From: Halobacteriovorax sp.
Lineage (GTDB): Bacteria; Bdellovibrionota; Bacteriovoracia; Bacteriovoracales; Bacteriovoracaceae
Assembly: GCA_002720865.1 (NCBI GenBank)
Contig: PBIO01000014.1
Location: forward strand, 1,177,793 to 1,241,792
DNA length: 64,000 nt
Direction: 5' to 3'
The notes under the pieces: generated by a model
Database searches by the model: none
What the model saw: the letters and a program-made list of their open reading frames with translations, nothing else
Told to the model about the DNA's origin: nothing
Shown here: positions 45,925 to 62,181 of the stretch, piece after piece
How positions within the stretch are numbered: position 1 is the first letter of the stretch
Layout: each line of letters starts with the position of its first letter
Translations under genes and position numbers: made by a program

Positions 45925-47295
45925 TTGGAATCGAAGAAATATTCACTTTTCACTAAAATCACAATTAGTTTTATAAGCTTGTTGGTATCACTTTTATGCC
46001 TGGAGGGAGGACTTAGGCTTGCTGGTCTTTATGTTTACTCCAGTCAGGAAAGAAACTTCGTTCCTTATGAAGAGCCCAAAGATTATGTCAGAAACCGAGT
46101 TTACGAAAAATATAAGCTTGGAAAAAGCTCAGGTGTCATAGTCGCCATCGGGGACTCTTTCACCAATGCTGGAAATGTAAAAAGCTATTATTCTTATCCT
46201 TATTTTCTCTTTAAATTGTTCGAAGAAAGTTCTCAGCCAAAGTCCGTTATTAACATGGGACTATGTGAAGATAGCACAATTCGTATTTACGATAGGTTAG
46301 TAGAATTCTTTAAAATTACCCCTAAAGAGGAGTTAAAAAACTTAGATAAGATCATAATGTTAGTTGGGTCAGCAGATAAGTTTGAGAGGTATGAAAACTA
46401 CGAAAGCGACAGGTTTCAAACAATTTTTTATGATATGGAGAACCCAACTTTTTTTAAAGAACTAAGAATTTATAAAGTCTTTCGACATATTAAATTGGTT
46501 TTATTAAACAAGTATTTAACTGAAGGATTGGAAACAGGTGAAGATTCTTTTGACGACGTTAATAAACTTTATTCTGAATTAGCAGTTAAGTATGAAATCG
46601 GTAGTACCGAGCGCCCAGAAAATTTTAAGGAGCTTCTAAAGAAGATGCCCGATAGTTTTAAAGACTATTCAGAAAGGCTACACCTGACCCTATCCACCCC
46701 GATTCAGCTAATTCATTCGCTCTCTGTCTACCAGTCCAAAATACTAACCTCCGAAAAAAAGCATGATGAGGCAGTCTTTTGGTTGCTTGATACGGCCCTG
46801 CGATTCCCAGTAGAGTTTTTCAATGGGGAAATGGATGATGCTTATTATCGATTAGTTCAAACTTATCAGATTCAAAGTCGTTATGAGAGTTCTGATATTA
46901 AGGATTTGTTGGATAAAATTATTTCTAAAAGCCCAGAGGTTGAAAAGTTTATTAACTTCAAAGAGTTTAAAGAGATGACCCTTAAGTGGGAGGAAGTAGA
47001 TAAAAATATTCAAGAGGAACGAAATAAATCATGGGATAAAATCGTAAAGCTTGTAAAAGATAATAAGGTCGAGTTAGTTTTGATGAATTATCCGACAGAG
47101 TATGTATCTGCAAATGAAACATTAAAAAGAGTAGCTAAAGAGAATCAATTAGTCTTTATAGATAACTTTGAATACTTTAAGCCACTAATTGAAAAATATG
47201 GGAGAAGTAAAATTCTTGAAGACGATGATCATTTTACACCTTTTGGCTATGAACTATTAGCAAAACATATATTTTCAAAAATAAATCAAAAGTGA
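45925..47295 (+). CDS. Membrane-anchored SGNH-hydrolase-like protein
   Basis: Protein of 456 residues with an N-terminal membrane helix (about 10-30). The SGNH pattern is visible: VIVAIGDSFTNAGNV carries the catalytic Ser in GDSF, and ILEDDDHFTPFGYELLA carries the DxxH. Between these lies a long helical insert (about 200-360). Such proteins are acyl- or acetyl-group hydrolases or transferases acting on surface polysaccharides. It starts at a TTG preceded by AAGGA and overlaps the next gene by 4 bases. It opens the glycan-type region. Confidence 0.75.
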   Translation: MESKKYSLFTKITISFISLLVSLLCLEGGLRLAGLYVYSSQERNFVPYEEPKDYVRNRVYEKYKLGKSSGVIVAIGDSFTNAGNVKSYYSYPYFLFKLFEESSQPKSVINMGLCEDSTIRIYDRLVEFFKITPKEELKNLDKIIMLVGSADKFERYENYESDRFQTIFYDMENPTFFKELRIYKVFRHIKLVLLNKYLTEGLETGEDSFDDVNKLYSELAVKYEIGSTERPENFKELLKKMPDSFKDYSERLHLTLSTPIQLIHSLSVYQSKILTSEKKHDEAVFWLLDTALRFPVEFFNGEMDDAYYRLVQTYQIQSRYESSDIKDLLDKIISKSPEVEKFINFKEFKEMTLKWEEVDKNIQEERNKSWDKIVKLVKDNKVELVLMNYPTEYVSANETLKRVAKENQLVFIDNFEYFKPLIEKYGRSKILEDDDHFTPFGYELLAKHIFSKINQK

Positions 47296-48947
47296 AAATG
47301 GCCTTTAAAGAAAGAAAATTCTTACTAGGAACTTTAGGGGCAATAGCTTTTTATCTGTTAGCCTACGCTTATACTTTAGGGCATAAACCAATGCTTGGTG
47401 ATGATTCCTATCTTGGTTTAGTGAATGAAACGCCGATGATTTTTGGTGAAAAGTGGAATGCAAACCCAATTGATGCAAGTTCTCTGAACTGTGAAAATGC
47501 TTTTGAAAAAGAAAAACTAATTTCAAGTAGCCTTTACTCATCAAGTGTTGAGCCCTCGTTATTTTTTCGTTCAGGTGAAGAGAAGTACCCTGTCCTCTTT
47601 AACAGAAGAAACGGGGGAGTACCTTTTTATTTTTTTAAGTTAGTAAGTAAGTCTTTAGGAGTTAAAAATACAAAAATACTTTTTAGCGCGAGTATGGGCG
47701 TCCTCAGCTTGTTCTTTTTGGCACTGGGAGTACGCCGATTAATGGGAACTGAGGTTGCTCTTGCCAGCGTTTTTATGAGCAGTATTTCCCCCATTTTTCT
47801 TATCGCAAAATCGGATCTAATCTCAGAGGCCATTACGGTGCCTTTGTTTCTAGCGTTATTTTTTCTGATTCAAGGTAGAAAAACCTCAGAGAAAATCCTC
47901 TGTGTCCTCATCTTTTTATTTGCGGTTCATATAAAGATTGTATCGATTCTCATGGTTATTCCTCTGTTAATTCTGTTCTTTGATAACTTTAAATCGGAGC
48001 GCAGGTTCACTTTTTTAGCTGCTTTTTCAGTAGTAATCTACTTTTCAATTTTACTTTTCACTCCAGGTGGTGAGCTAGAATTATTAGTAAGAAGATCAGG
48101 GCAAGGCTTTTATAAAGGAGGTGCTGACTGGTTACTCTTTGCGAATAACTTTCTAGCATTTTTAGTTTCTCCAATTCATTTCATGGATGATCAATTCTTG
48201 GATGTTCCGTATATTTTAAATATTAAAGAGCGTTTTTTAAGTTTTTCAATTTTGGAGTGGGGAACCTTTTTGGGCTTAATTGGACTTGTTATTTTAAACT
48301 TTAAAGAGAGATACATAAAAAAATTATTACTAGCTCTCATGATTTATTCAGTCGCACTATTTTTTCAAGGGCATGGGGAAATAACATACAGCTCTCACTT
48401 CACCGAATCCTTTCCCCTTTACTCTATTTTGATAGGAGGCCTACTCGTATATAGTTTGAGGAGTCATAAAAAAATTCGTGTTATTATGTCGATCGGTTTT
48501 GTAGCTATTTTTCTTTTTCAATCCGTAAAATGGTCTTCGCTCTATCGAGAAAAGGGAGCACATCCATTACTAAGCATACAGTTTTATGAAGAGATAAGTA
48601 GATTTTTAGTAAAAAAAGATATTAACCCAATTGTGATTGATGGTGAGATTGAACTAGGTGCAATTGAAACTCTAACCGAAGAGAAAACAAAGCCTATCTA
48701 TACGGAGTCGATGGCTAAGGGACTACAGTATATTCATAACTGCAGTAAGGAGAAAGAAGGTCATCTCTTAGTTTATCTTAGACCTTCGGTGTATTATGAC
48801 GACCAAAGAATCGGTTATCAACATATAACGTACTCCAATGATACGGTTGTGGAGGAATTTAGTAAGAGTGGAATTCAGTTAGTAGACGAGAAAACCTTTT
48901 ATCATAACGGTGATGCTATCTATTGGCTTGCCCGGTTTCAGCTCTAA
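47292..48947 (+). CDS. Multi-pass membrane protein, GT-C glycosyltransferase-like
   Basis: Protein of 551 residues with about ten hydrophobic helices, the first at 10-26. After the first helix an acidic segment MLGDDSYLGLVNETP resembles the catalytic Asp loop of GT-C (PMT/ArnT-like, family 39) enzymes. A C-terminal soluble domain follows at 430-551. GT-C enzymes move sugars from lipid carriers to acceptors outside the membrane. Translation is coupled to the SGNH gene (GTGA overlap); an ATG two codons later is an alternative start. Assignment is by layout and motif, not firm. Confidence 0.6.
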   Translation: MKMAFKERKFLLGTLGAIAFYLLAYAYTLGHKPMLGDDSYLGLVNETPMIFGEKWNANPIDASSLNCENAFEKEKLISSSLYSSSVEPSLFFRSGEEKYPVLFNRRNGGVPFYFFKLVSKSLGVKNTKILFSASMGVLSLFFLALGVRRLMGTEVALASVFMSSISPIFLIAKSDLISEAITVPLFLALFFLIQGRKTSEKILCVLIFLFAVHIKIVSILMVIPLLILFFDNFKSERRFTFLAAFSVVIYFSILLFTPGGELELLVRRSGQGFYKGGADWLLFANNFLAFLVSPIHFMDDQFLDVPYILNIKERFLSFSILEWGTFLGLIGLVILNFKERYIKKLLLALMIYSVALFFQGHGEITYSSHFTESFPLYSILIGGLLVYSLRSHKKIRVIMSIGFVAIFLFQSVKWSSLYREKGAHPLLSIQFYEEISRFLVKKDINPIVIDGEIELGAIETLTEEKTKPIYTESMAKGLQYIHNCSKEKEGHLLVYLRPSVYYDDQRIGYQHITYSNDTVVEEFSKSGIQLVDEKTFYHNGDAIYWLARFQL

Positions 48948-48950
48948 AGA

Positions 48951-49955
48951 TTACTTTTGAGTAAACTTTTTTAAGGTTTCGAAAGTAGATTTAAAGTTAA
49001 AATTTAAAACATTAGATATTTCAGTACAACATATCATAGGTTTTGAGCACATGAATTTCGGCATCTTTCTAATCTGAGCTAAAAACGTTTCTCTATTTTT
49101 ATGATTTAGATAGATGGCATCGTCATTACTCATTAGTGAGCATCGCTTAATTCCACCTGCAGGGGTAATCCTAAGTTGAAAATATTCGCATGAATAACGC
49201 TTATGCATTTTCTCTAGTCGGAAGAAGTCGAGAACTCCATCTGACATCATTATGTATTTATTTTCTTTCTTTTGATTATGTAGAAAAGTCGCGACCTCAG
49301 TAATTGTGCTTTTCTTTGGAACAAGTAAATAGTCTTTTTCTTTGGCAAGACCAGCCTCTGCGTAAATTGGATAGATTTTTATTTTAACATTTAGCTCTTT
49401 TGCTAGTGCTGTTAATTTTGGAACATCATCTTTGTTATGATCTCCGTAGCACATATTAGTGGTTACGTTAACCTTAAGCCCTCGCTTTCGAATTTCTTTT
49501 ATAACCTCTATATTTTTTTTAAAAGAACCTTTCCCGCGATTTTTATCGTGATTTTCTTCCATCCCATCGAAGCTAATAATTAAAGTATCAAGCTCTTTTG
49601 CTACATCATAAATTTGATTATGAGGATCGGTACATGAGGTGTTTAAGCTCACATGCATTCCCAAGTCTTTTTTAGCGTATTTAATTATCTCTATAATGTC
49701 TTTTCTTACGAGTGGCTCTCCCCCCGTGAGATGCAAGAAGTAAACACCGGCCTGCTGTAAGGCCCAGATCATATTTTTTGAATCTTCCGTACTTAGGTCC
49801 TCACTTTTTTTACGAATTTGATAGCACATGGGACACTTAAGGGGACATAAGTAAGTTGTAACCCAAGTGGCCACAAGTGGAATCTGACGATTAAAAAATA
49901 CTACTAGGATAGTATTCTTTACGAGTATGATTTTTCTCCAAAGTCTTAAAAACAT
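48951..49955 (-). CDS. Radical SAM enzyme, SPASM-like (first of three)
   Basis: Iron-sulfur enzyme of 334 residues. The radical SAM cluster motif is TTYLCPLKCPMCYQI (Cys37, Cys41, Cys44), with FLHLTGGEPLVRKD as the GGE motif and TLIISFDGMEENHDKNRG as a typical middle strand. The C-terminal region has further cysteines (YSCEYF, GIKRCSL, KFMCSKPMICCTE), suggesting a second cluster as in SPASM-type enzymes. Substrate unknown. It lies between a GT-C-like protein and the aminotransferase, facing left. Part of the radical SAM trio of this locus. Confidence 0.85.
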   Translation of the reverse strand: MFLRLWRKIILVKNTILVVFFNRQIPLVATWVTTYLCPLKCPMCYQIRKKSEDLSTEDSKNMIWALQQAGVYFLHLTGGEPLVRKDIIEIIKYAKKDLGMHVSLNTSCTDPHNQIYDVAKELDTLIISFDGMEENHDKNRGKGSFKKNIEVIKEIRKRGLKVNVTTNMCYGDHNKDDVPKLTALAKELNVKIKIYPIYAEAGLAKEKDYLLVPKKSTITEVATFLHNQKKENKYIMMSDGVLDFFRLEKMHKRYSCEYFQLRITPAGGIKRCSLMSNDDAIYLNHKNRETFLAQIRKMPKFMCSKPMICCTEISNVLNFNFKSTFETLKKFTQK

Positions 49956-50079
49956 ATTTCTCTATTATAAGGTAGAGTTGAGTAATTAGTGATTTATATT
50001 AGCAAAATTTTCTAAGCCTTGGTGGCGGCGCGTAAGTCCTTGTTTTTATGAGAGGATTCTTAGTTGTATTTTTAGCTCT

Positions 50080-51276
50080 TTAGTTAAAGCTATTATTTGT
50101 GGCATAGAGCTTCAATATCTTAGAAATATAAATTCTATCCTTTTCAGTCAACGATTCATACACAGGAAGTTGCACATAGTGGTTAATTGCAAAACTAAGA
50201 CCGGGGAAATCTTTTAGCTCTCCTAGGGGGTCCATGATTGAACTACCAAATCCCGTGTCTATTCCATGTTCAGAAAGAAAGGCACTACATTTATGAGCAT
50301 CATCAACAATGGCGATGAAGTAATAAATCACGTCACCTTTTTTCCGACTTAAAAACTGACAATCATCTTTTAGTTCTTCTTTGATTTTGTTAACAAAGTT
50401 TAATCTAAAATTTAAAAAGTCCCTATGTTTTGCTAACTGTATCAGTCCATATTTAGCCTGAATATTTGAAAATTTTTTGAAGTCAGATAAATTTCCTCTT
50501 TTAGGCTTATTCATCATAACCTTTACTTTTTTTAAAAGCTTAGCATTCCTCAATAAACTCTTGAAAAGAGGAGTTGTTCTTTTTGTAAAAACAAGGCTTT
50601 CTATATTGGATAAAAAAATTCTCTTGAGTAAAAAAAGGGTTGAAGGATATTGAAGAGAGGAGATCACCCTCCTCGAATATTCTTCGAGCTGTTTATCGTT
50701 AGTTAGAAGAATGCCACCAGTAAAGGTATTAATTAGCTTGCAGTAATCAAAACTGTAGAAAGCAGCGTGTCCTAAAGTTCCGACAGCTCTTTCCTCTATT
50801 TGAGTACCATGTGCGTGAGCACAATCTTCTATCACAATTAGGCCTTGCTCTTTGGCTATATTAATTACTTCTTCATCACAAGAGTTTCCTAAAAGATGAG
50901 TTACGAGAACCGCCTTGGCATCAGGACCAATTTTTTCTCTAAGCGAACTAGCAGACATGGTTCCACGTTTTTTATCTATATCAACTAGCTTGTACTTGAT
51001 AGACATGTTCTCAAGTAAATCTTTAACAATATATGAAGTATAAGCGGGAATTAGTAGGTGCTCGTTTTTATTAAATTGGTAAAACTCTAAAATGATTTTT
51101 AGAGCTTGAGCTCCACATGCCGTTGCAATTGCGTACTTCGTACCGATAGAGGAACCAAATCTCTCCTCAAAGTCTTTAACTTCTCTACCTTTGATAAAGC
51201 TACGATTTAAAAGCGAGTCGAATATGATACGAAACTGTCTAGGAATAAGTCTGTTTCGCCTTCTAATGAGCATCAT
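50080..51276 (-). CDS. DegT/DnrJ/EryC1/StrS-type aminotransferase
   Basis: PLP enzyme of 398 residues that typically transfers an amino group onto a keto-sugar nucleotide. KYAIATACGAQALKIILEFY, LLIPAYTSYIVKDLLEN and VIEDCAHAHGTQIEERAVG match the family. The PLP-binding Lys is in FYSFDYCKLINTFTGGIL near 198, followed by the usual double Gly. Members make amino sugars for O-antigens, capsules and antibiotics. It starts 88 bases from the divergent AsnB gene, so the two share a promoter region. Confidence 0.9.
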   Translation of the reverse strand: MMLIRRRNRLIPRQFRIIFDSLLNRSFIKGREVKDFEERFGSSIGTKYAIATACGAQALKIILEFYQFNKNEHLLIPAYTSYIVKDLLENMSIKYKLVDIDKKRGTMSASSLREKIGPDAKAVLVTHLLGNSCDEEVINIAKEQGLIVIEDCAHAHGTQIEERAVGTLGHAAFYSFDYCKLINTFTGGILLTNDKQLEEYSRRVISSLQYPSTLFLLKRIFLSNIESLVFTKRTTPLFKSLLRNAKLLKKVKVMMNKPKRGNLSDFKKFSNIQAKYGLIQLAKHRDFLNFRLNFVNKIKEELKDDCQFLSRKKGDVIYYFIAIVDDAHKCSAFLSEHGIDTGFGSSIMDPLGELKDFPGLSFAINHYVQLPVYESLTEKDRIYISKILKLYATNNSFN

Positions 51277-51364
51277 ATTTATGCCAATTGTTATAAAACT
51301 AGTTTAGTGTATACTTCTAAAGGTTTATTGTAAATTCTGCGACATACTTTAAATAGGATAAAAA

Positions 51365-53263
51365 ATGTGCGGTTTTATCGGATATTTTCAACGGCAAGAA
51401 AAAGATAAAGAGTTTCACGATAGCTTTATTATTAAAGCACAAAATATACTTGAGCATCGTGGACCTGACTTTTCTGGAGCAAAAGAAGTTGGAGCCTGCG
51501 GATTTGTTCACAATAGATTAAAAATTAGAGACCTAAGAGATGTCGCAAACCAGCCTATGTCTAACGAAGATGGAAGCTTATGGTTATTATTTAATGGAGA
51601 AATATATAATACTGAAGAATTAAAAAGTAAGTTTAACTTGTTAGAGCCTCATCACGCTTTTAAATCAAAAATGGATGGAGAGGTTATTCTTCACTTATAC
51701 GAGGAAATAGGTATTCGCTGCCTTGAATATTTGAACGGAATGTATTCTATTGCAATTTGGGATTCAAAGAAACAAGAGCTTCATTTAGCAAGAGACTCAT
51801 TTGGGATTAAGCCATTATTTTACTATCAGAGTCAATCAACCTTTTTCTTTGCTTCAGAGATAAGCGGACTAATTCCATTCTTAAGTGAATCTCCAAAAGT
51901 AAATACAAATTCGTTGCAATCATTTCTTCAGATAGGATACTTTATTGGAGAAGAAACGGCGTTTGAAAATATTAAAGAAGTTCCTCCTGGAACCGCACTT
52001 ACAATTTCAAAAAATAAGGTTGTGCAAAATTCATTTAAGTATTCTTCTTACAGCGAAAATCTTAATTATTCTTATTCGCCAGAAGAGTTTCGAAATCAGC
52101 TACAAAATTCAGTAGACCGACAACTTGAGTCGGATGCTCCTTTAGGAATCATGCTCTCTGGAGGATTAGATTCTTCGAGTCTCGTAGCTTTAGCTAGTTT
52201 GGCCAGGAAAGGAAAAGCTCTTACCAGCTTCTCTCTTACATTTGATGAAAAACGCTTTGATGAATCTCGCTTTTCTCAAATTGTGGCAAACAAATTTAAA
52301 ACAGAGCATTATGAGATTAACATCAGGCCCTCCGACTTTATAGACTCCGTTGGATCTTCGATTTCTTTTCTCTGTGAGCCGACCTCAGATGGAAGTGCTA
52401 TCCCCACTTTTCTGTTGGCAAAAAAAGCCAAGGAACACGTAAAAGTTTTACTTTCCGGAGATGGGGGAGATGAAGTCCTAGGTGGCTATGACACTTATAT
52501 TGCCCATAAGGTTAGGAGACTATACCGCTTTATTCCTAGGCTAATTAGAGAGGGAAGCATTGAGAAGTTTATAAAAGTACTGCCAACAAAATTTGATAAA
52601 ACTACTTTTGAGTATCAGGCAAAGTTATTTATTTATGGTGCTTCTCAAAGTACGCCTCGCTCCCACTGTTCTTGGAGAACAATGTTAACTAATGAAGAAG
52701 TTGAATTTATTGTTAGCGATAAATCAATTTTAACCAAAGGTAATTCGGCTCAGGAATTCTTTGAAATTGCTTATGAAAAGTATAATCAAGAGAAAGACGA
52801 GATCAGAAAACTGATCTTAATGGACCAAGAAATTCATTTGCCTTATAAAATATTGAAAAAGACTGATCGAATGACGATGGCCCACTCTATAGAAGCAAGA
52901 GTTCCCTTTTTGGATTTAGAGTTTGCTCGTTATGTGAGAGGAATACCTACTGCAAAGTTAGTTAAGGGCTTTTCAAAAAAAGATGTCTTTAAAAAAGCTA
53001 TGAAGGGTCTTATCCCAGAAGAAATTATACATAGAAAGAAGAAAGGCCTACTTGTTCCATATTCGAGTTGGCTTAGGGGTGAGCTAAAGGAATTCTCCTA
53101 TGATATTCTTTTTTCAAGTAATACTGATCTCTCTTACCTTTTTGATTTAAAGTTCATTCAGAAACTATGGGATCAGCATCAAAATTCGACTAGAGACAAT
53201 GGGCATGCTCTTTGGGGTCTCATTAACTACTTTTTGTGGCATAAAAAATTTATTAAAAGATGA
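51365..53263 (+). CDS. asnB: Glutamine-hydrolysing asparagine synthase (AsnB)
   Basis: Enzyme of 632 residues with both domains complete. The glutaminase domain begins MCGFIGYF (catalytic Cys2). The synthetase domain has the PP-loop IMLSGGLDSSSLVAL near 262 and LLSGDGGDEVLGGYDTY near 372. It makes asparagine from aspartate and glutamine, but AsnB-like enzymes in glycan clusters can instead amidate a carboxyl sugar such as a uronic acid. Location inside this locus and the divergent aminotransferase favour the second idea; this is inference. AGGAT precedes the ATG. Confidence 0.9.
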   Translation: MCGFIGYFQRQEKDKEFHDSFIIKAQNILEHRGPDFSGAKEVGACGFVHNRLKIRDLRDVANQPMSNEDGSLWLLFNGEIYNTEELKSKFNLLEPHHAFKSKMDGEVILHLYEEIGIRCLEYLNGMYSIAIWDSKKQELHLARDSFGIKPLFYYQSQSTFFFASEISGLIPFLSESPKVNTNSLQSFLQIGYFIGEETAFENIKEVPPGTALTISKNKVVQNSFKYSSYSENLNYSYSPEEFRNQLQNSVDRQLESDAPLGIMLSGGLDSSSLVALASLARKGKALTSFSLTFDEKRFDESRFSQIVANKFKTEHYEINIRPSDFIDSVGSSISFLCEPTSDGSAIPTFLLAKKAKEHVKVLLSGDGGDEVLGGYDTYIAHKVRRLYRFIPRLIREGSIEKFIKVLPTKFDKTTFEYQAKLFIYGASQSTPRSHCSWRTMLTNEEVEFIVSDKSILTKGNSAQEFFEIAYEKYNQEKDEIRKLILMDQEIHLPYKILKKTDRMTMAHSIEARVPFLDLEFARYVRGIPTAKLVKGFSKKDVFKKAMKGLIPEEIIHRKKKGLLVPYSSWLRGELKEFSYDILFSSNTDLSYLFDLKFIQKLWDQHQNSTRDNGHALWGLINYFLWHKKFIKR

Positions 53264-53268
53264 AGACT

Positions 53269-54225
53269 TTAAAGAACGGAATTTGAATTGAAAGCGGACC
53301 AAGCCTCACATGAGGTGCACTCGTCAAAATCCTTAAGCTTTTTAAAAGATGCAGCAAGACCAATATTTTTGAGCTCTTTGTAAGGAATAACTTCTTGAAC
53401 TCTACCACATTTTTTTAAGTCTCCATTTACTTCGACTCTAGCAAAAAGCTTTCCTGCAAAGCATCTGGCGATCAAATCTTCTGTATACAGTGATTTCCAA
53501 TATTCAAGTGAAGTTAATGAGTTTTTAAGATACTTATTTCCTTTTTTCTTTTCATTTATCATAAACTCGACGGCCTCAAGAATCTGCTCTTTACTCATCG
53601 CTTTATCATAGGGCTCGTAAGTTAATTTTAGCTCTGCAACAGGCTGAAAGGAGAAAGGGACATCGATCGTTTTAGCAAAGTCTAAGATCTCATTTAGACG
53701 GTTATAATTGTCTCTAGTAAAAACACAACAGGCATGAGTTTTTATGCCTTCTTTTTTTAATAGTCTTAAGGCTTCGACAGCTTTGGTAAAACTTCCATCT
53801 CCTCGATACATGTCATTTGTAGACTCTATTCCGTCCAGGCTTATAACAACTTGGAAGCAGTTTCTTTTTAAAAAGTCGATTTTCTTTGGAACTAAGATTC
53901 CATTGCTGTTAACGCTAATGAGAACACCGTTACTTCTTGCTTTTGTAACAAATTTTTCAAAGTCTTTGTGAACAAGAGGTTCTCCACCGGTAAGGGATAG
54001 AACTTTTAGATTTTCCTTAATCGCAGTATCTAAATAATTGAATAGTTCTTCGCTAGAAAGCTCCGGGGTTGTAAGACCCGGTAGTCCACAGTAACTGCAA
54101 TCAAGATTACATCTGTTCGTTAAAGACCAAGTCAGGATGAAGGGCTTCTCTTTCCCAAGCGTCTTGTATTTAAGAAGCTCACCGGCAAGAGAGGCAAAAT
54201 CTAAATATTCTTTTAACTTTATCAA
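53269..54225 (-). CDS. Radical SAM enzyme, SPASM-like (second of three)
   Basis: Iron-sulfur enzyme of 318 residues. The cluster motif is SLTNRCNLDCSYCGLPG (Cys39, Cys43, Cys46), the GGE motif is VLSLTGGEPLVHKDF, and VVISLDGIESTNDMYRG follows. C-terminal cysteines (ARCFAG, LKKCGR, DECTSCEAW) suggest an additional cluster. It starts at TTG with AGAGGT upstream. It is paralogous to the enzyme at 54430, with similar C-terminal KNSL and AGKLF blocks. The two are divergent, 204 bases apart. Substrate unknown. Confidence 0.87.
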   Translation of the reverse strand: MIKLKEYLDFASLAGELLKYKTLGKEKPFILTWSLTNRCNLDCSYCGLPGLTTPELSSEELFNYLDTAIKENLKVLSLTGGEPLVHKDFEKFVTKARSNGVLISVNSNGILVPKKIDFLKRNCFQVVISLDGIESTNDMYRGDGSFTKAVEALRLLKKEGIKTHACCVFTRDNYNRLNEILDFAKTIDVPFSFQPVAELKLTYEPYDKAMSKEQILEAVEFMINEKKKGNKYLKNSLTSLEYWKSLYTEDLIARCFAGKLFARVEVNGDLKKCGRVQEVIPYKELKNIGLAASFKKLKDFDECTSCEAWSAFNSNSVL

Positions 54226-54290
54226 CTTTGGTACCTCTATTTCTTAGTGGCCTAAGTTCTCTATGTTGACGTTGGTATGCCTCTGATAAT

Positions 54291-54322
54291 CTATGATACT
54301 CGAGAATCGAGAAAAATCATAG
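54291..54322. promoter_or_regulatory. Nested inverted repeat between two radical SAM genes
   Basis: CTATGAT (54291-54297) pairs with ATCATAG (54316-54322), and an inner CTCGA (54299-54303) pairs with TCGAG (54307-54311). It lies midway between the two divergent radical SAM genes and has no T-run, so it may be an operator or a leader hairpin. The 203-base gap otherwise shows no gene. Confidence 0.35.
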
Positions 54323-54429
54323 GGTGAGAGGTGACTTAAGTTATTGTTATTACGAGTTATTGGGGTAGCATCACATTGGGTTTTGGTATAGAATAAAGAT
54401 TAGTCTATTTAAGCAAAGGTACTGGTGTT

Positions 54430-55416
54430 ATGAAAATTTTAGATAAGTCAAAAGTCTTTGGTAAAATAATGGCTAATAAGGTTGGCTTAACTCAAAACCC
54501 AGTAGCGGCGCGGTGGGTGATCACAAATCGTTGTGGATATCACTGTAGTTATTGCAACACCCATGAATATGAACACAAAGATATGGATAAAAAGGATGTC
54601 GATGTTATCCTTGAGAAGATTAAAACTCTCGGAATAAAACGGCTTTCAATTAGTGGTGGAGAACCACTGATCGGTGATCATTTCTCATATATTATTGATA
54701 AGTGCAGAGAGTTTGGAATCTCTCCAATCGTTAACACCTCTGGGTTTCACTTTGAAAAACAGATTGAATCTCTAAAAAAGACTGACCTTATTCAGTTTAG
54801 CTGCGATGGTCCTGAAGAGGTGATGACAAAAACAAGAGACGATAGGGCTCATAAAATACTTGAAGATGCCGTAAAGCTTGCCGTAGAGAATAAAATTAAA
54901 TTCTCATTTGCTTGTACAATGACCAAGTACAATACAAATCCAGAAATGCTTAACTATATGCTTGAATTGGCGAAATCTTACGATACCGTTGTAGCTTTCC
55001 AGCCTTTAAAAGAAATGCATGGGAAAAATTCTAGCTGTCAGGATTTAATGCCTACGATTAATAATGTTCGTGAATCCGTAAAATTTTTAATTGATAAGAA
55101 AATAGCTGGGAACAAAAATATTCGAAACTCACTAGAAGGTTTGAATCATATTAAAAATTGGCCAAGCTATGAAAAGCTATTCTGTACTGCGGGAAAACTT
55201 TTTATCATTATTATGCCTGATGGGGCTGTTGTTTCTTGTGATCGCTTATCCTACGAAGTTGAAAGTAATACAAACTTAATTTCAGACTCCACAGAGGAAT
55301 GCATGGATAAACTAGAAACTCCAAGCTGTGAAGGATGTGGTTTTTGTGGGGCAACAGAGTTAAATCATGTTTATTCTATGAACTTTTCCCCGATTAAAGA
55401 TCTTTTAAAGCTTTAA
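54430..55416 (+). CDS. Radical SAM enzyme (third of three)
   Basis: Iron-sulfur enzyme of 328 residues. The cluster motif is ITNRCGYHCSYCNTHEY (Cys35, Cys39, Cys42), with RLSISGGEPLIGDHF as GGE motif and LIQFSCDGPEEVMTKTRDDR. C-terminal cysteines (EKLFCTAGKLF, VVSCDRLS, PSCEGCGFCGATE) suggest a second cluster. It resembles its divergent neighbour at 53269 over the whole length. It is convergent with the aldolase gene, overlapping by 23 bases. Substrate unknown; context suggests modification of a sugar, lipid carrier or small peptide. Confidence 0.87.
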   Translation: MKILDKSKVFGKIMANKVGLTQNPVAARWVITNRCGYHCSYCNTHEYEHKDMDKKDVDVILEKIKTLGIKRLSISGGEPLIGDHFSYIIDKCREFGISPIVNTSGFHFEKQIESLKKTDLIQFSCDGPEEVMTKTRDDRAHKILEDAVKLAVENKIKFSFACTMTKYNTNPEMLNYMLELAKSYDTVVAFQPLKEMHGKNSSCQDLMPTINNVRESVKFLIDKKIAGNKNIRNSLEGLNHIKNWPSYEKLFCTAGKLFIIIMPDGAVVSCDRLSYEVESNTNLISDSTEECMDKLETPSCEGCGFCGATELNHVYSMNFSPIKDLLKL

Positions 55417-56173
55417 ATAGAGAGACCGCTTTTCTTGCTTCACAATCTAAAAATTTAAAATCAACACTATAAGCAATAAATTTAGCGCCATTTTTCTTTT
55501 CAGCTTCTAGCTTTTCTAAATCAGGTTCTACTAAATGGATTCCAAAAGCCTTAGAGTATTTGATCGCACAATCACGAACAGTGCTTACGGCCTCGAGGTA
55601 TTTTGGATGATTAAAATCTCCAGGTACCCCAAGGGATGAAGACAGGTCATAGGGACCAATCATCAAAGCATCAACTTCATTACAACTTAGAATACTTTCA
55701 ATATTCTCAACTGCCTTCGTACTTTCAATTTGTACTATAAGAGGAATTTCATTTGAAACGGTATTCATATATGAAGAGAAAGAGTTTCCATATTTTTGAG
55801 CCCTGCTCAAACCAACCCCTCTATTTCCTCCGTGCTGCGGATAGTGCATCCAAGAGTGGATCAACTTAACTTCTTTTGAAGAACAAATATTCGGGACGAT
55901 AATCCCTTTCGCACCGGCATCAAGTAAGCGTTTAATCTGAGATTCGTTATGTGAACTGACTCGAACGATAGGGCAAACATCCTTTAAATCGATAACTCTA
56001 ATTAAGTCCTCAGCTTCTCGCAGGCTGATACTTGAGTGCTCAAGGTCAATAGTCAACCAGTCGAAGCCAGCATCACATAGGATTTCAGCAATACTTGGAT
56101 GGGCCAAAGAAATCCAAGAACCCAGTGTGAATTGATGATTTTGTAATTTATTTTTTAATTTTAGGGAGCTCAA
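55394..56173 (-). CDS. HpcH/HpaI family class II pyruvate aldolase
   Basis: Cytoplasmic metal-dependent aldolase of 259 residues. FTLGSWISLAHPSIAEILCD, FDWLTIDLEHSSISLREAED, GAKGIIVPNICSSKEV and RGVGLSRAQKYGNSF match the HpcH/HpaI family, with the metal-binding Glu and Asp in LIVQIESTKAVEN and IGPYDLSSSLG. These enzymes condense or cleave pyruvate with aldehydes to give 4-hydroxy-2-oxo acids, including 2-keto-3-deoxy sugar acids. The TTG start has AGAGG at good spacing. It overlaps the SIS gene by 26 bases, so the two are translated together. Confidence 0.88.
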   Translation of the reverse strand: MSSLKLKNKLQNHQFTLGSWISLAHPSIAEILCDAGFDWLTIDLEHSSISLREAEDLIRVIDLKDVCPIVRVSSHNESQIKRLLDAGAKGIIVPNICSSKEVKLIHSWMHYPQHGGNRGVGLSRAQKYGNSFSSYMNTVSNEIPLIVQIESTKAVENIESILSCNEVDALMIGPYDLSSSLGVPGDFNHPKYLEAVSTVRDCAIKYSKAFGIHLVEPDLEKLEAEKKNGAKFIAYSVDFKFLDCEARKAVSLFKALKDL

Positions 56174-56693
56174 AATGGTTACCTCTTATGAGTTCATAAC
56201 TTAAGGCTAAAGAAAGCATTTCACTAGTATGATGAAAATTTACATTTTGAATTAAAGGAATTGTTTTTGGGTTTAGATTTTCTTTAGGTCCAGCTGAAAA
56301 AATTACTGTTTGCATTCCTTGTTCTGCGGCCCAAGATAGGGCATCCATTATTCCAAGAGCAGATGGTGATGCACTAGAGCATGATAGGCCTATAACGAGA
56401 CAGTCTTCTGGTGAAATATTTCTTGCTTTACCTTCAAGCCAAGTTCGATAAAGTTTTTCAAATCCGACGTCACCGGCCAAGGCCGTTAGTGCGATTGAAT
56501 CTTCCGGGGCCATGACATTTTTACCGGTCAAGCGACTAGCGTCTGAGGCAGCATGAGAGGAAACGGCCAGGTTACCACCATTTCCAATATAAAAGACAAA
56601 TTTAGCGTTATTAAAACTGGCCTGAACCCTTTGCCATGCGTCAGATCTTGTTATCGCTGCGAATTTTTCTTCAAAATTTTCTAGATCCAACAT
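56148..56693 (-). CDS. SIS-domain phosphosugar isomerase (GmhA-like)
   Basis: Cytoplasmic protein of 181 residues with one SIS domain. KFVFYIGNGGNLAVSSHAAS, GDVGFEKLYRTWLEGKARN and CLVIGLSCSSASPSALGIMD follow the GmhA (sedoheptulose-7-phosphate isomerase) pattern. It probably isomerises a ketose phosphate for a surface sugar. The ATG at 56693 fits the family N-terminus; an upstream TTG at 56729 would add 12 residues. Coupled to the aldolase, which suggests that it supplies the aldehyde or phosphosugar substrate for that enzyme; this is inference. Confidence 0.82.
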   Translation of the reverse strand: MLDLENFEEKFAAITRSDAWQRVQASFNNAKFVFYIGNGGNLAVSSHAASDASRLTGKNVMAPEDSIALTALAGDVGFEKLYRTWLEGKARNISPEDCLVIGLSCSSASPSALGIMDALSWAAEQGMQTVIFSAGPKENLNPKTIPLIQNVNFHHTSEMLSLALSYELIRGNHFELPKIKK

Positions 56694-56771
56694 TCGTCTA
56701 TAATAGGCTAGCTTAAAATGACCCGTCAAATCCCGAGCTTAATTGTACTGGATTCGGTGACGTGATATTGT

Positions 56772-58052
56772 TTGAAAATGCATCTTTTTAGAGCTTTAAA
56801 AATCGTTATTTATAAGGATTCCAATTCATTTAGACAGTATGTTTTTAACGAATTATCTTCGAGAAATACAAAGATTTCTTTGGTCTTAGGAGTTTATAAT
56901 AATGTACCAAGTTTTATAAAAGTCGCTATGGTTTTCATCTACGGACTTAAATCTTTTTTGGTAACAAAAGAAATTAAAGAATCTACACCAATAATCTCAT
57001 CTTCAATTTATAAAAACGAAAAAAGAAAATTTGCCCTAATTGAAAGTTGTATAGGACCCAAGCAAATCTCTCCACTGAGCTTTTCCTGGCTTGGGGTCTT
57101 AAACTTTTCTCTCTACATTAAAGTATTAGGTTTTTTATTAGAGGGAAAACTTCTCAGGATCCTTTGTAAGCTAGTGAGGAAACATGATTTCTTAGTCGCT
57201 TGTAGAGCTTCTAGTCTCATCTTTTACTATTTAAGGATTGTTCAAATGGAGCTCAATCCAAAGGTGGCATACTCTTTAGTTTCCAGTGACTCCAATCCCT
57301 ATGCTTTAGGAACAAGCTTCGCTTTTTTAAAAAAGAACTTGAAAACAATTTATATCACTCATGGACACTTACCCGAAGCTCCACCTCGAAACTTTTTTGA
57401 TTTTTCATTTTTTGATGGAGAGGCTATGGCCGATGTTTACAAAAGGATGGGGGAAATTAAGGGTAAGTATTTTTTAATAGGGGCTGAAGGTTCTTATAAT
57501 CCACTTGATCTAAGTGGCTTAAAAAAAGAAAACAAATGTATAGGAATATTCCTGTCCTTAGTAACGGACTGGAGCAGTTTAGGGCTTCTTGTGGGGCAAG
57601 TCTCAGAGGTATTCAAGACTGATCGTATTTTGGTTAGACTGCATCCAAATGAGATCATTAGAGATAAAAAGGGTGTGAAGTTCCTTGAAACTATCCCGAA
57701 TGTTACGATCTCGACCGCTGAAACCTTGGCCATAGATGATATTAAAAGCTGTGATTTAATTATTACTGGAAACTCAAGTGTACACCTTACTATCTTAAAG
57801 TATGGAAAACCTACTCTCTATGTAAAAGGTGTTGATGCGGTTCCACACGATTTTTATCGTTTTGTGGAGAAAGGAATTATACCTTATTTGGAAGATTTAA
57901 GTTTTTACCGATTAGACGATATGCTACAGTTTTATTCAGGTAGTTGGACAAAAAAGTTTGAGTATTTTGATAGCTCCTACCCCTATAACTCAGTTAATAA
58001 AGACTATAGTAAAGAGAGTATTGCTAAAGCCTTTAAGGAGATTTTATCGTGA
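56772..58052 (+). CDS. GT-B-like surface polysaccharide transferase
   Basis: Protein of 426 residues without signal peptide. The C-terminal half shows a GT-B-like pattern: IFLSLVTDWSSLGLLVGQVS, RILVRLHPNEIIRDK, then CDLIITGNSSVHLTILKYGK and PTLYVKGVDAV, similar to CDP-glycerol- or sialyl-type transferases of capsule clusters. The N-terminal half includes hydrophobic segments, possibly membrane-associated. It starts at TTG 56772 or at the ATG two codons later. It overlaps the CMP-sugar synthetase gene by 4 bases, so it probably uses that product as donor. Confidence 0.65.
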   Translation: MKMHLFRALKIVIYKDSNSFRQYVFNELSSRNTKISLVLGVYNNVPSFIKVAMVFIYGLKSFLVTKEIKESTPIISSSIYKNEKRKFALIESCIGPKQISPLSFSWLGVLNFSLYIKVLGFLLEGKLLRILCKLVRKHDFLVACRASSLIFYYLRIVQMELNPKVAYSLVSSDSNPYALGTSFAFLKKNLKTIYITHGHLPEAPPRNFFDFSFFDGEAMADVYKRMGEIKGKYFLIGAEGSYNPLDLSGLKKENKCIGIFLSLVTDWSSLGLLVGQVSEVFKTDRILVRLHPNEIIRDKKGVKFLETIPNVTISTAETLAIDDIKSCDLIITGNSSVHLTILKYGKPTLYVKGVDAVPHDFYRFVEKGIIPYLEDLSFYRLDDMLQFYSGSWTKKFEYFDSSYPYNSVNKDYSKESIAKAFKEILS

Positions 58053-58708
58053 TTTCAGCTTATCTTTTTATAAAGGAAGAAAGCGAAAGAGTCCCCAATA
58101 AAAACTTTGTGGAAGTTGGTGGTAAACCACTTTTTCAATGGATCATTGAAACGCTTCAAAAAGTTAATAGAATAGATCAAATTGTAATTAATACGGATGC
58201 CCCTCAAATCCTTTCATCTGACCTCCTTAAAGCTAGTCATAAATTTCAAGTTATAGAACGAGAAGAGAAGTTAAGAGGAAATAAAATTACAGCTAACCAG
58301 TTAATTGAATCTGATATTGAAAAATTTTCGAACAAATTAATTCTTAATGTTCATGTTACAACTCCTTTTTTATCTGTAGAGACAATTGATAAAGGAATTG
58401 ACTTAATTTTAAACAGCAGCAGTGGTTCAATATTTGGCGTAAATGAAATTTACCATCGCTTTTATGACTCTAAATTAAACCCTGTTAATCATGATCCTAA
58501 GGACTTAGTGCCGACTCAGCAATTGTCACCTCTCTATATGGAGAATTCATCTCTATACATATTCAAAAAAGAATCATTTGAGAAACATGGCAATCGAATC
58601 GGACCCGACTCTAAAATAATCGAAGTGCCTAAGCTAGAGGCCCTAGATATCGATACAGAGGAAGACTTAATTTTAGCTAAGGCTTATGCGAATTATTTAA
58701 AAGCATAG
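58049..58708 (+). CDS. CMP-sugar synthetase (acylneuraminate cytidylyltransferase-like)
   Basis: Cytoplasmic nucleotidyltransferase of 219 residues. The N-terminus AYLFIKEESERVPNKNFVEV matches the CTP-binding loop of NeuA/CMP-KDO synthetases (R-x-P-x-K-N). IDQIVINTDAPQILS, LILNVHVTTPFLS and EALDIDTEEDLILA are further family features. It should attach CMP to a nonulosonic or other ulosonic acid. Translation is coupled to the transferase (GTGA overlap). No NeuB- or KdsA-type synthase is in the window; the nearby HpcH-type aldolase might replace it. Confidence 0.85.
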   Translation: MISAYLFIKEESERVPNKNFVEVGGKPLFQWIIETLQKVNRIDQIVINTDAPQILSSDLLKASHKFQVIEREEKLRGNKITANQLIESDIEKFSNKLILNVHVTTPFLSVETIDKGIDLILNSSSGSIFGVNEIYHRFYDSKLNPVNHDPKDLVPTQQLSPLYMENSSLYIFKKESFEKHGNRIGPDSKIIEVPKLEALDIDTEEDLILAKAYANYLKA

Positions 58709-58741: not shown

Positions 58742-59011
58742 TTATTTTAAATATTTTCCAAAAACTTTTAACTTCTCGCATGACTCTTCATGCTTCAAAT
58801 CACAGCCGGCCTTAAACCAATTCGCTGCATTTTTCTTAATTTCTTTTTGGTCCAATCTTTTAATTTCTTCAATAAGAGCATATTCCTTTAGACCCGCTTT
58901 GTAGCAAGCCTCACCATTACTATGCTTTCGACATTGATGTGACCATTTTACGACTCTCGTAGCACAGGACTGGAATAATAATATGAACATTAGAGCTGTT
59001 ATCAATTTCAT
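58742..59011 (-). CDS. Small Cys-rich lipoprotein, Sel1/Hcp-like
   Basis: Protein of 89 residues with lipoprotein signal MKLITALMFILLFQSC (lipobox LFQSC). The mature part has a regular Cys pattern (NGEACYKAGL, then ANWFKAGCDLKHEESCEKL), like disulfide-stapled Sel1/Hcp repeats. The ATG at 59011 has GGAGAA upstream and overlaps the stop of the preceding thioesterase gene (ATGA). A longer in-frame version would bury the signal. Role unknown; Sel1-type repeats usually mediate protein contacts. Confidence 0.7.
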   Translation of the reverse strand: MKLITALMFILLFQSCATRVVKWSHQCRKHSNGEACYKAGLKEYALIEEIKRLDQKEIKKNAANWFKAGCDLKHEESCEKLKVFGKYLK

Positions 59012-61507: not shown

Positions 61508-62181
61508 ATATAGAGCCTCTTTGCCATATTCAAACAGCCTTCAAAGATAAGTTTGGCATACCTAGACAAAGTGGGCTGATTCCAGAAGCTCTTGGGATTC
61601 TTGAGTTTGAAAATAATAACTTTAACCGAGAGGCCTTAAGGGGAATTGAAGATTTTTCTCATCTTTGGCTAAGCTTTATTTTTGATAAGGCCATCAAAGA
61701 CGGTTCAAAAAGTTTAGTTCGACCTCCAAGGTTAGGGGGTAAAGACAAAATGGGTGTTTGGGCAACTCGCTCACCCCATAGACCTAATCATCTTGGCTTA
61801 ACAGTAGTTAAATTACTTAAAGTTGAATCCTTAGAGAAAACCATCTCAGTTGTAGTAGGGGGAGTTGACCTCCTTGATGGGACTCCTATCGTTGACCTAA
61901 AACCTTATGTTCCCTACGCTGATATCGTTAGTGAAGCCAAGTCCGCATGGGTACCAAGCCCAGAAAAAATCTTTAAACCCAAGGTATTTTGGAAAGAGGG
62001 AGTTAGGGAGCTGCTGAGTGGTGAGGAAGCGGAGTTAATAGAAAAGGTTTTAGAACAAGACCCAAGGCCTAGTGCTCAAAAGGATGATAAAGACTCTTAT
62101 GTCTTTAAAATATTTGATTACCAAGTAAAGTTTGAAAATGGGAAAGAGGAATTTAGAGTTTCAAATATAAAAAAGCTCTAG
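61504..62181 (+). CDS. trmO: tRNA (N6-threonylcarbamoyladenosine37-N6)-methyltransferase TrmO
   Basis: Cytoplasmic SAM-dependent enzyme of 225 residues that methylates t6A37 in tRNA-Thr. FGIPRQSGLIPEALGILEFE, VWATRSPHRPNHLGLTVVKL and VVVGGVDLLDGTPIVDLKPY are TrmO/YaeB motifs. Length is normal. Translation is coupled to the membrane Hsp20-like gene (ATGA overlap). The stop overlaps the convergent metG gene by 4 bases. With tcdA (31771) the window encodes two enzymes acting on the same modified base. Confidence 0.94.
   Translation: MNIEPLCHIQTAFKDKFGIPRQSGLIPEALGILEFENNNFNREALRGIEDFSHLWLSFIFDKAIKDGSKSLVRPPRLGGKDKMGVWATRSPHRPNHLGLTVVKLLKVESLEKTISVVVGGVDLLDGTPIVDLKPYVPYADIVSEAKSAWVPSPEKIFKPKVFWKEGVRELLSGEEAELIEKVLEQDPRPSAQKDDKDSYVFKIFDYQVKFENGKEEFRVSNIKKL

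Follow-up and report, generated by a model that had tools for sequence, protein, structure and literature searches.

We analysed a window of 64,000 nt (the whole stretch of DNA that was studied) on contig PBIO01000014.1 of Halobacteriovorax sp., which is genome G000 in our set. The window encodes three radical S-adenosylmethionine (SAM) enzymes at 48951-55416, which we call RS1, RS2 and RS3. Our main finding is that RS2 and a DegT-type sugar aminotransferase form a conserved two-gene module, and this pairing suggests that amino groups are put onto sugars via radical chemistry. We estimate that there is roughly a 50% chance that the locus encodes a surface-glycan pathway in which RS2 oxidises a hydroxyl group to a ketone, the DegT protein aminates the ketone, and the substrate of RS1 and RS3 is the same intermediate or a neighbouring one.

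A preliminary description of this DNA had reported three radical SAM genes, each with CxxxCxxC and extra C-terminal cysteines, as well as an aminotransferase and AsnB among them. The open reading frames (ORFs), Pfam matches and motifs agree:

48951-49955, minus strand: RS1, Twitch-type radical SAM enzyme, 334 amino acids (aa); Pfam Radical_SAM, 91 bits (cut-off 29.5)
50080-51276, minus strand: DegT/DnrJ/EryC1-type sugar aminotransferase, 398 aa; Pfam DegT (PF01041), 157 bits, residues 22-202
51365-53263, plus strand: AsnB-type glutamine amidotransferase, 632 aa; Pfam Asn_synthase, 297 bits, and TIGR01536, 438 bits (cut-off 267)
53269-54225, minus strand: RS2, Twitch-type radical SAM enzyme, 318 aa; Pfam Radical_SAM, 92 bits (cut-off 29.5)
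54430-55416, plus strand: RS3, Twitch-type radical SAM enzyme, 328 aa; Pfam Radical_SAM, 64 bits (cut-off 29.5)

RS2 and DegT form a conserved pair

We searched 368 genomes of Bdellovibrionota, several of which are fragmentary assemblies, and scored at most 5-9 candidates per genome. The E-value thresholds for orthologues were picked after the matches were seen. A profile of RS2 (alignment A2) matched 8 of the 368 genomes at E ≤ 1e-38, and four of these (G000, G015, G023 and G109) at E ≤ 1e-100. The profile has three rows, all of which are among these four matches. G109 is an independent find, because the other three RS2 sequences were used to build the profile. When we searched with the DegT protein of the window alone, just 4 of the 368 genomes matched at E ≤ 1e-30, and these were the same four genomes. 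If the four genomes were drawn blindly, the chance of this agreement would be 1.3e-9, which is a rough guide that ignores kinship and the choice of thresholds.

In G015, G023 and G109, the genes for RS2 and DegT overlap or abut; in the window, the AsnB gene lies between them on the opposite strand. (The contig with the G109 pair is identical to JAURDE010000108.1, from a metagenome-assembled genome of Bdellovibrionota.) The four RS2 proteins group together in the tree (support 99/97). The window's DegT protein retains the predicted lysine for pyridoxal phosphate (PLP), K180 (motif search, alignment A4), which we take to be the PLP-binding residue. No NCBIfam subfamily model reaches its cut-off for this protein.

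The association of RS2 with DegT is the only firm functional link among the three radical SAM genes. Conserved gene association is stronger evidence than positional clustering: Pfam gives 36 radical SAM matches in this 4.9-Mb genome, and three starts at most 5.6 kb apart are seen in about 0.025 of random placements, so the clustering of the three genes is only modestly unusual.

The three radical SAM enzymes are Twitch-like

The preliminary description called the three enzymes SPASM-like, and here we differ. According to the available excerpts of PMC6231123, the SPASM domain has seven cysteines (CX9-15GX4C-gap-CX2CX5CX3C-gap-C) that bind two clusters, while the Twitch domain is a shortened form with one cluster. 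Our motif search found one CX3CX2C and one CX9-15GX4C in each of RS1, RS2 and RS3, and it found CX2CX5CX3C in none of them. At E ≤ 0.1, Pfam reported its SPASM family for none of RS1-3. Since they have the shortened set of cysteines for one auxiliary cluster and not the set of seven, RS1-3 are Twitch-like, with a predicted single auxiliary cluster. Among the best 25 NCBIfam matches for each protein, no model reaches its own cut-off.

In RS2, the first cluster motif is CNLDCSYC, and the C-terminal cysteines are C255, C273, C303 and C306, the last two of which form the later CX2C. These four auxiliary cysteines are invariant in 30 of 30 aligned relatives. RS3 has CGYHCSYC, followed by C252, C270, C300 and C303 (again ending with CX2C), plus C291 and C306. 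The C-terminal cysteines of RS1 are at 256, 272, 303, 309 and 310. Its auxiliary set would be C256, C272, C303 and C310, with a CX6C variant in place of CX2C and with C309 as an extra; the CX6C ending is shared by its orthologue in G103.

AlphaFold2 models of RS2 (pLDDT 88.5, pTM 0.88) and RS3 (pLDDT 84.0, pTM 0.86) align over almost their full length with SkfB, BlsE, SuiB and anSME. For RS2, the top Foldseek match is BlsE (TM score 0.72, 20% identity), which aligns with Z = 24.4 over 280 residues at 3.2 Å; SkfB aligns with Z = 25.3. BlsE is also the top match to RS2 among sequences in the PDB, over residues 33-179. A shared fold does not show a shared function.

Several relatives of RS2 lie among sugar genes

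The preliminary description placed the enzymes in a glycan-type locus, and this setting is well supported: homologues adjoin sugar enzymes in other members of the phylum and in an archaeal cluster with an STT3 oligosaccharyltransferase and glycosyltransferases. In G015, the gene order is glycosyltransferase family 2 (GT2), 2-hydroxyacid dehydrogenase, short-chain dehydrogenase/reductase (SDR), cytidylyltransferase, DegT, RS2, a SPASM radical SAM enzyme, a second DegT, an FAA hydrolase, a second cytidylyltransferase, a SIS protein, and GT1. In G023, RS2 and DegT are followed by three more radical SAM genes (one of which gives a weak match for B12 binding) and by an SDR. In G109, they are accompanied by two B12-binding radical SAM genes, a SIS protein and a GDSL protein.

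A more distant relative (30% identity) is found in an archaeon (JABHZQ010000023.1, our locus L079), directly after the STT3 gene. The order there is STT3, RS2-like, SDR, GT2, radical SAM, LPG_synthase_TM, PMT_2, GT2, radical SAM, and GT1, so this archaeal glycan cluster has three genes with the radical SAM motif. The glycan setting is not universal. Next to another archaeal relative (L080, 29% identity to RS2) are a gene of the amine oxidase family and a TraG-type ATPase, and no sugar gene was recognised. In G341, a DUF2079 membrane protein and a solute-binding protein are nearby, and no sugar enzyme was recognised in the three ORFs that were scanned. Even with these two more distant relatives, the homologues are not found consistently away from glycan genes.

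Orthologues of RS1 and RS3 pair with other radical SAM enzymes

As the preliminary description stated, RS2 and RS3 are divergently transcribed paralogues. Within the genome, each has the other as its best match (30% identity, E ~5e-33). In the tree, RS3 groups with an orthologue in G020 (100/100) and RS2 groups with its DegT-linked relatives. Because each is grouped with orthologues from other genera, they are old paralogues that belong to separate subfamilies, and the tree rules out a recent duplication.

The G020 protein is the only close relative of RS3 (43% identity, E = 1e-84), and its gene is in tandem with that of another Twitch radical SAM enzyme. When RS3 alone was compared to the genome contigs, there were 25 pattern matches, with no relative among them. 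The closest relative of RS1 is in G103 (33% identity, E = 2e-53), and its gene overlaps that of another Twitch radical SAM enzyme. The Twitch partners in G020 and G103 are each other's closest relatives (100/100 in the tree), so members of a single Twitch subfamily are partnered with RS3 in G020 and with RS1 in G103. In the window, RS1 and RS3 occur together.

In G103, the Twitch partner and the RS1 orthologue are preceded, on the same strand, by a DegT-like fragment that is cut by the end of the contig. The fragment is 24% identical to the window's DegT protein (E = 6e-12, with composition adjustment off) and matches the DegT protein of G109 with E = 7e-13 at default settings; Pfam gave no family for its 279-aa ORF. 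After the pair is a class-V aminotransferase, which by eye resembles cysteine desulfurases and was given no weight. Overall, the mixed pairings in G020 and G103 tie RS1 and RS3 to sugar chemistry more weakly than the DegT pairing ties RS2.

Two other observations concern G020. A stretch of this genome (L064, G020:C35:40000-59999) has seven ORFs with CX3CX2C within 15 kb, and several of them alternate with genes for methyltransferases, SDRs and glycosyltransferase-9 proteins. Also, a distance of about 7-10 kb separates metG from the RS pair both in the window (62178-63971) and in G020 (L058:826-2793), with 60% identity between the two. This might reflect a shared insertion region, or it might be chance. 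We do not claim synteny, because the pairs are on opposite sides relative to the direction of metG.

Other genes in the locus

We consider the locus to span about 45.9-58.7 kb of the window. Besides the genes listed above, it includes:

45925-47295, plus strand: SGNH/GDSL-type protein, 456 aa, possible acyltransferase or esterase; weak match to Pfam GDSL, below the cut-off
47292-48947, plus strand: PMT_2-type membrane glycosyltransferase, 551 aa; Pfam PMT_2, 27.6 bits (cut-off 26.1)
55394-56173, minus strand: pyruvate aldolase of the HpcH/HpaI class, 259 aa; Pfam PF03328, 117 bits (cut-off 25), and PDB 2vws (YfaU), E = 4e-35
56148-56729, minus strand: SIS-domain protein, putative GmhA-like sugar-phosphate isomerase; weak, with SIS_2 at 15.9 bits (cut-off 27) and GmhA models at E ~1e-5
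56772-58052, plus strand: probable glycosyltransferase-like protein, 426 aa; NCBIfam BFO_1060 glycosyltransferase at just 17 bits, and a homologue in G015 (25% identity, E ~1e-19)
58049-58708, plus strand: CMP-sugar synthetase of the acylneuraminate/Kdo cytidylyltransferase superfamily, 219 aa; CTP_transf_3 (PF02348), 64 bits (cut-off 22.6), and PDB NeuA, E = 1e-6

The SIS and SGNH assignments are weak predictions from sequence. The SIS gene overlaps the aldolase gene. For the aldolase, no NCBIfam equivalog cut-off was reached, and for the 426-aa protein no Pfam family exceeded its cut-off. We rejected PseF itself as the identity of the cytidylyltransferase (69 bits versus a cut-off of 206 for the PseF model).

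The G+C content of the locus is 35.4%, versus 39.0% for the rest of the window, and the congeners G001 and G002 have no match to RS2 at E ≤ 1e-38. Both observations fit an accessory locus.

The same genome has a second, larger glycan-type locus that is rich in radical SAM genes (G000:C14, about 483000-538000; L168-L170). It contains 11 ORFs with CX3CX2C, and Pfam gives 10 radical SAM matches at 483-533 kb. It also holds GT1 homologues, a SIS protein, and four paralogues of the window's SGNH/GDSL protein (28-49% identity). Two homologues (35% and 30% identity) of another radical SAM protein, at L056:10121-11272, are in this second locus as well. In the L056 protein, Pfam places SPASM (residues 30-92) before radical SAM (139-283, just below the cut-off), which is the reverse of the usual order.

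The aldolase and the CMP-sugar synthetase recur together

The cytidylyltransferase is 43-44% identical to the gene that adjoins RS2 and DegT in G015. At E ≤ 1e-15 it has matches in 17 of 334 genomes, so its occurrence is not tied to RS2. Besides the window, we read nine of its loci (G015, G113, G074, G107, G092, G033, G121, G364 and G259); another seven matched genomes are outside this set. In 6 of the 9 loci (G113, G074, G107, G092, G033 and G121), a homologue of the HpaI-class aldolase (39-46% identity) is nearby. There was none in the stretches read for G015, G364 and G259. In G107, the genes in between encode an NAD-dependent epimerase, a cyclase and a HAD phosphatase (by Pfam), plus a homologue of 2-hydroxyacid dehydrogenases. 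(Among the six HpaI loci, L182-L187, the Pfam scan of genes covered L184 and part of L185.)

The aldolase and the CMP-sugar synthetase are thus a separate recurring module, which is possibly part of an undescribed pathway for a CMP-sugar acid. In the Kdo pathway, an isomerase acts first, a PEP (phosphoenolpyruvate)-dependent synthase carries out the condensation, and a phosphatase and a CMP transfer follow. By analogy, the HpaI module would resemble this logic, with a pyruvate aldolase replacing the synthase.

A proposed pathway and its alternatives

We infer the reactions, the substrate and the order of the steps from what the analysis showed: which genes are present, their sets of cysteines, their class of fold, the two module associations and the sugar neighbourhoods. 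The product of the locus would be an unusual sugar or sugar acid that is activated with CMP and bears an amino group, which would be made and then transferred to a surface glycan. RS2 would take a hydrogen from a carbon of the sugar, and its auxiliary cluster, with four cysteine ligands, would accept the second electron, so that the hydroxyl becomes a ketone. DegT would then aminate this ketone. RS1 and RS3, as sister-type enzymes, might carry out a second oxidation, an epimerisation, or a C-O or C-N cleavage on the same or a neighbouring intermediate; successive steps by RS1-RS3 on one intermediate, as in the preliminary description, are plausible. The HpaI-class aldolase would make an acid skeleton from pyruvate, which the cytidylyltransferase would activate, and AsnB might amidate a carboxylate.

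Oxidation followed by amination is the simplest reading, because the four auxiliary cysteines of RS2 are invariant and its DegT partner retains the predicted PLP lysine. The Twitch enzyme BtrN oxidises a hydroxyl of an amino-cyclitol, and its four-cysteine auxiliary cluster is the likely electron acceptor, while the auxiliary cluster of MoaA leaves one iron open for the substrate (excerpts of PMC9012708 and, for BtrN, of PMC6231123). RS2 alone has the BtrN-type features, that is, four auxiliary cysteines and an aminotransferase partner.

Several observations weigh against this reading. First, the module is known from just four genomes, and three of their RS2 proteins are in the profile; in G341, which has the next-best RS2 match (2.7e-50), no DegT was found in the stretch that was read. 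Second, BtrN ranks far below SkfB, BlsE, SuiB and anSME among the folds that resemble RS2 (Z = 16.8 over 208 residues at 2.7 Å) and is also low in the list of folds that resemble RS3, a search of PDB sequences with E ≤ 1e-5 did not bring it up for RS2, and the closest folds include enzymes that modify peptides. Fold and sequence cannot separate dehydrogenation from the other reactions of Twitch and SPASM enzymes, and predicting function from similarity networks is difficult for this subfamily (excerpts of PMC6231123). Third, we recognised neither Wzx, Wzy nor NeuB in the locus, nor an ABC exporter, so the link to a glycan as the destination is indirect. Fourth, in the HpaI-cytidylyltransferase loci of the six other genomes, no ORF with the radical SAM motif was found in the stretches read, and the two modules may therefore have different substrates.

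The pathway might instead be a sugar pathway in which RS2 acts on an amino sugar that DegT has already made, by DesII-like radical deamination, NeoN-like epimerisation or BlsE-like decarboxylation. Gene association does not give the order of the two steps, BlsE leads both the Foldseek and the PDB sequence matches, and DesII aligns with RS2 (Z = 19.2, 292 residues, 5.2 Å). A four-cysteine auxiliary cluster suits a two-electron oxidation, although this is not decisive (excerpts of PMC9012708). On balance, we consider this order of events possible but somewhat unlikely.

Many SPASM and Twitch enzymes modify peptides, and the best fold matches include SkfB and SuiB, so RS1-3 might crosslink or epimerise a small peptide made by the ribosome. 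But the subfamily of RS2 adjoins sugar genes, and, in agreement with the preliminary description, our scan of ORFs of at least 15 aa in the gaps between the RS genes gave no convincing precursor: they have 15, 16 and 24 codons, and just one (15 codons, with a TTG start) has a site that resembles a ribosome-binding site. Where RS2 and DegT overlap or abut, in three genomes, there is no room for a precursor between them, and conserved short peptide genes were not found in the window's locus. The sole sizeable extra ORF (58742-59011, minus strand, between the cytidylyltransferase and a DUF4442 gene) encodes 89 aa; it contains cysteine, appears by eye to be lipoprotein-like, and is not precursor-like. 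Also, the first cluster cysteine is at position 37, 39 or 35 in RS1, RS2 or RS3, and the 34-38 residues before it are too few for a fused N-terminal RRE. By this measure, none of the three has a fused RRE; no search was made for a separate RRE protein. Maturation of a peptide therefore seems quite unlikely.

We also doubt, about as strongly, that RS1-3 act on a lipid or a lipid-linked carrier instead of a nucleotide sugar, as enzymes like HpnH or the synthase of glycerol dialkyl glycerol tetraethers (GDGTs) would. RS1 does match HpnH (77 bits) and tetraether synthase (60 bits), but these scores are weak and far below the cut-offs. A PMT_2-type membrane transferase is encoded next to RS1, but we recognised no enzymes for lipid tails in the locus, and the DegT and cytidylyltransferase partners belong to families that act on soluble sugars.

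Finally, it is very improbable that these are prokaryotic viperins that make the antiviral ddhCTP: PADLOC's pVip models match RS1-3 (58-72 bits) and viperin folds align (Z of 20-24), but the three pVip scores are alike, as in cross-matches within the superfamily, the NCBIfam viperin model (NF038283) gives RS1 52 bits and RS3 48 bits versus a cut-off of 180 and is not among the best 25 matches for RS2, and viperin is not known to have the set of auxiliary-cluster cysteines that RS1-3 carry.

Implications

A conserved pair of a radical SAM enzyme and an aminotransferase in a surface-glycan setting would extend radical sugar chemistry to the sugars of the cell envelope, and assays could be done on a defined system of two enzymes. 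The many unassigned radical SAM genes in surface-glycan loci of some bacteria and archaea would also become easier to explain. More speculatively, Bdellovibrionota, and more distantly some archaea, may use interchangeable Twitch radical SAM enzymes, often along with B12-binding ones, as a general toolkit for the sugars of surface glycans. RS2-DegT would then be a portable module for radical amination, in place of the usual NAD-dependent oxidation that precedes transamination; further radical steps on the same sugar would fall to RS1 and RS3. We offer this broader idea tentatively.

Most known examples of radical SAM enzymes with sugar substrates come from antibiotic biosynthesis. In the open-licence PMC literature, we found no description of the RS2-DegT pair or of radical SAM steps on the sugars of surface glycans. 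The suggestion in the preliminary description that this is a little-described use of the family holds in spirit, except that radical SAM genes amid rfb and glycosyltransferase genes are already in print, without a function (gene list of a Brachyspira plasmid, excerpts of PMC4267127). Overall, the original observation is confirmed and its interpretation is partly supported.

Comparison with known systems

RS2 resembles BlsE, the cytosylglucuronate decarboxylase of blasticidin S biosynthesis, over its whole length, and the substrate of BlsE is a sugar acid linked to cytosine, which is a further likeness to the proposed pathway. However, BlsE belongs to a nucleoside antibiotic pathway; besides the low identity to RS2, the NCBIfam model for BlsE gives RS1 63 bits versus a cut-off of 400.

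In the formation of 8-amino-Kdo, a dehydrogenase (KdnB) and a DegT-family aminotransferase (KdnA) aminate a CMP-type sugar acid; KdnB is an alcohol dehydrogenase and not a radical SAM enzyme. The window's DegT protein matches KdnA (PDB 5k8b), but this is not its best PDB match (E = 2e-12, versus 4e-26 for 5u1z).

SkfB, a Twitch sactisynthase, has the Twitch domain and one auxiliary cluster, as predicted for RS2. SkfB acts on a peptide and carries an RRE at its N-terminus (excerpts of PMC6231123), whereas RS1-3 have no extension of that length, and the scan of ORFs of at least 15 aa in the gaps of their locus gave no convincing precursor gene.

The rfb region of a 36-kb plasmid of Brachyspira hyodysenteriae has six radical SAM genes amid genes for glycosyltransferases, epimerases and cytidylyltransferases (excerpts of PMC4267127). 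The likeness is one of gene lists, and this is a spirochaete whose gene functions are unassigned; the excerpts report no pairing with DegT.

The system most like our proposal for RS2 is BtrN in the synthesis of butirosin, which contains 2-deoxystreptamine. That product is an antibiotic cyclitol and not a surface glycan, and the match of RS2 to the BtrN fold is middling. Nevertheless, both systems combine a Twitch radical SAM enzyme that has four auxiliary cysteines with an aminotransferase, which in butirosin biosynthesis is also of the DegT family, and in both the predicted course is from hydroxyl to ketone to amine.

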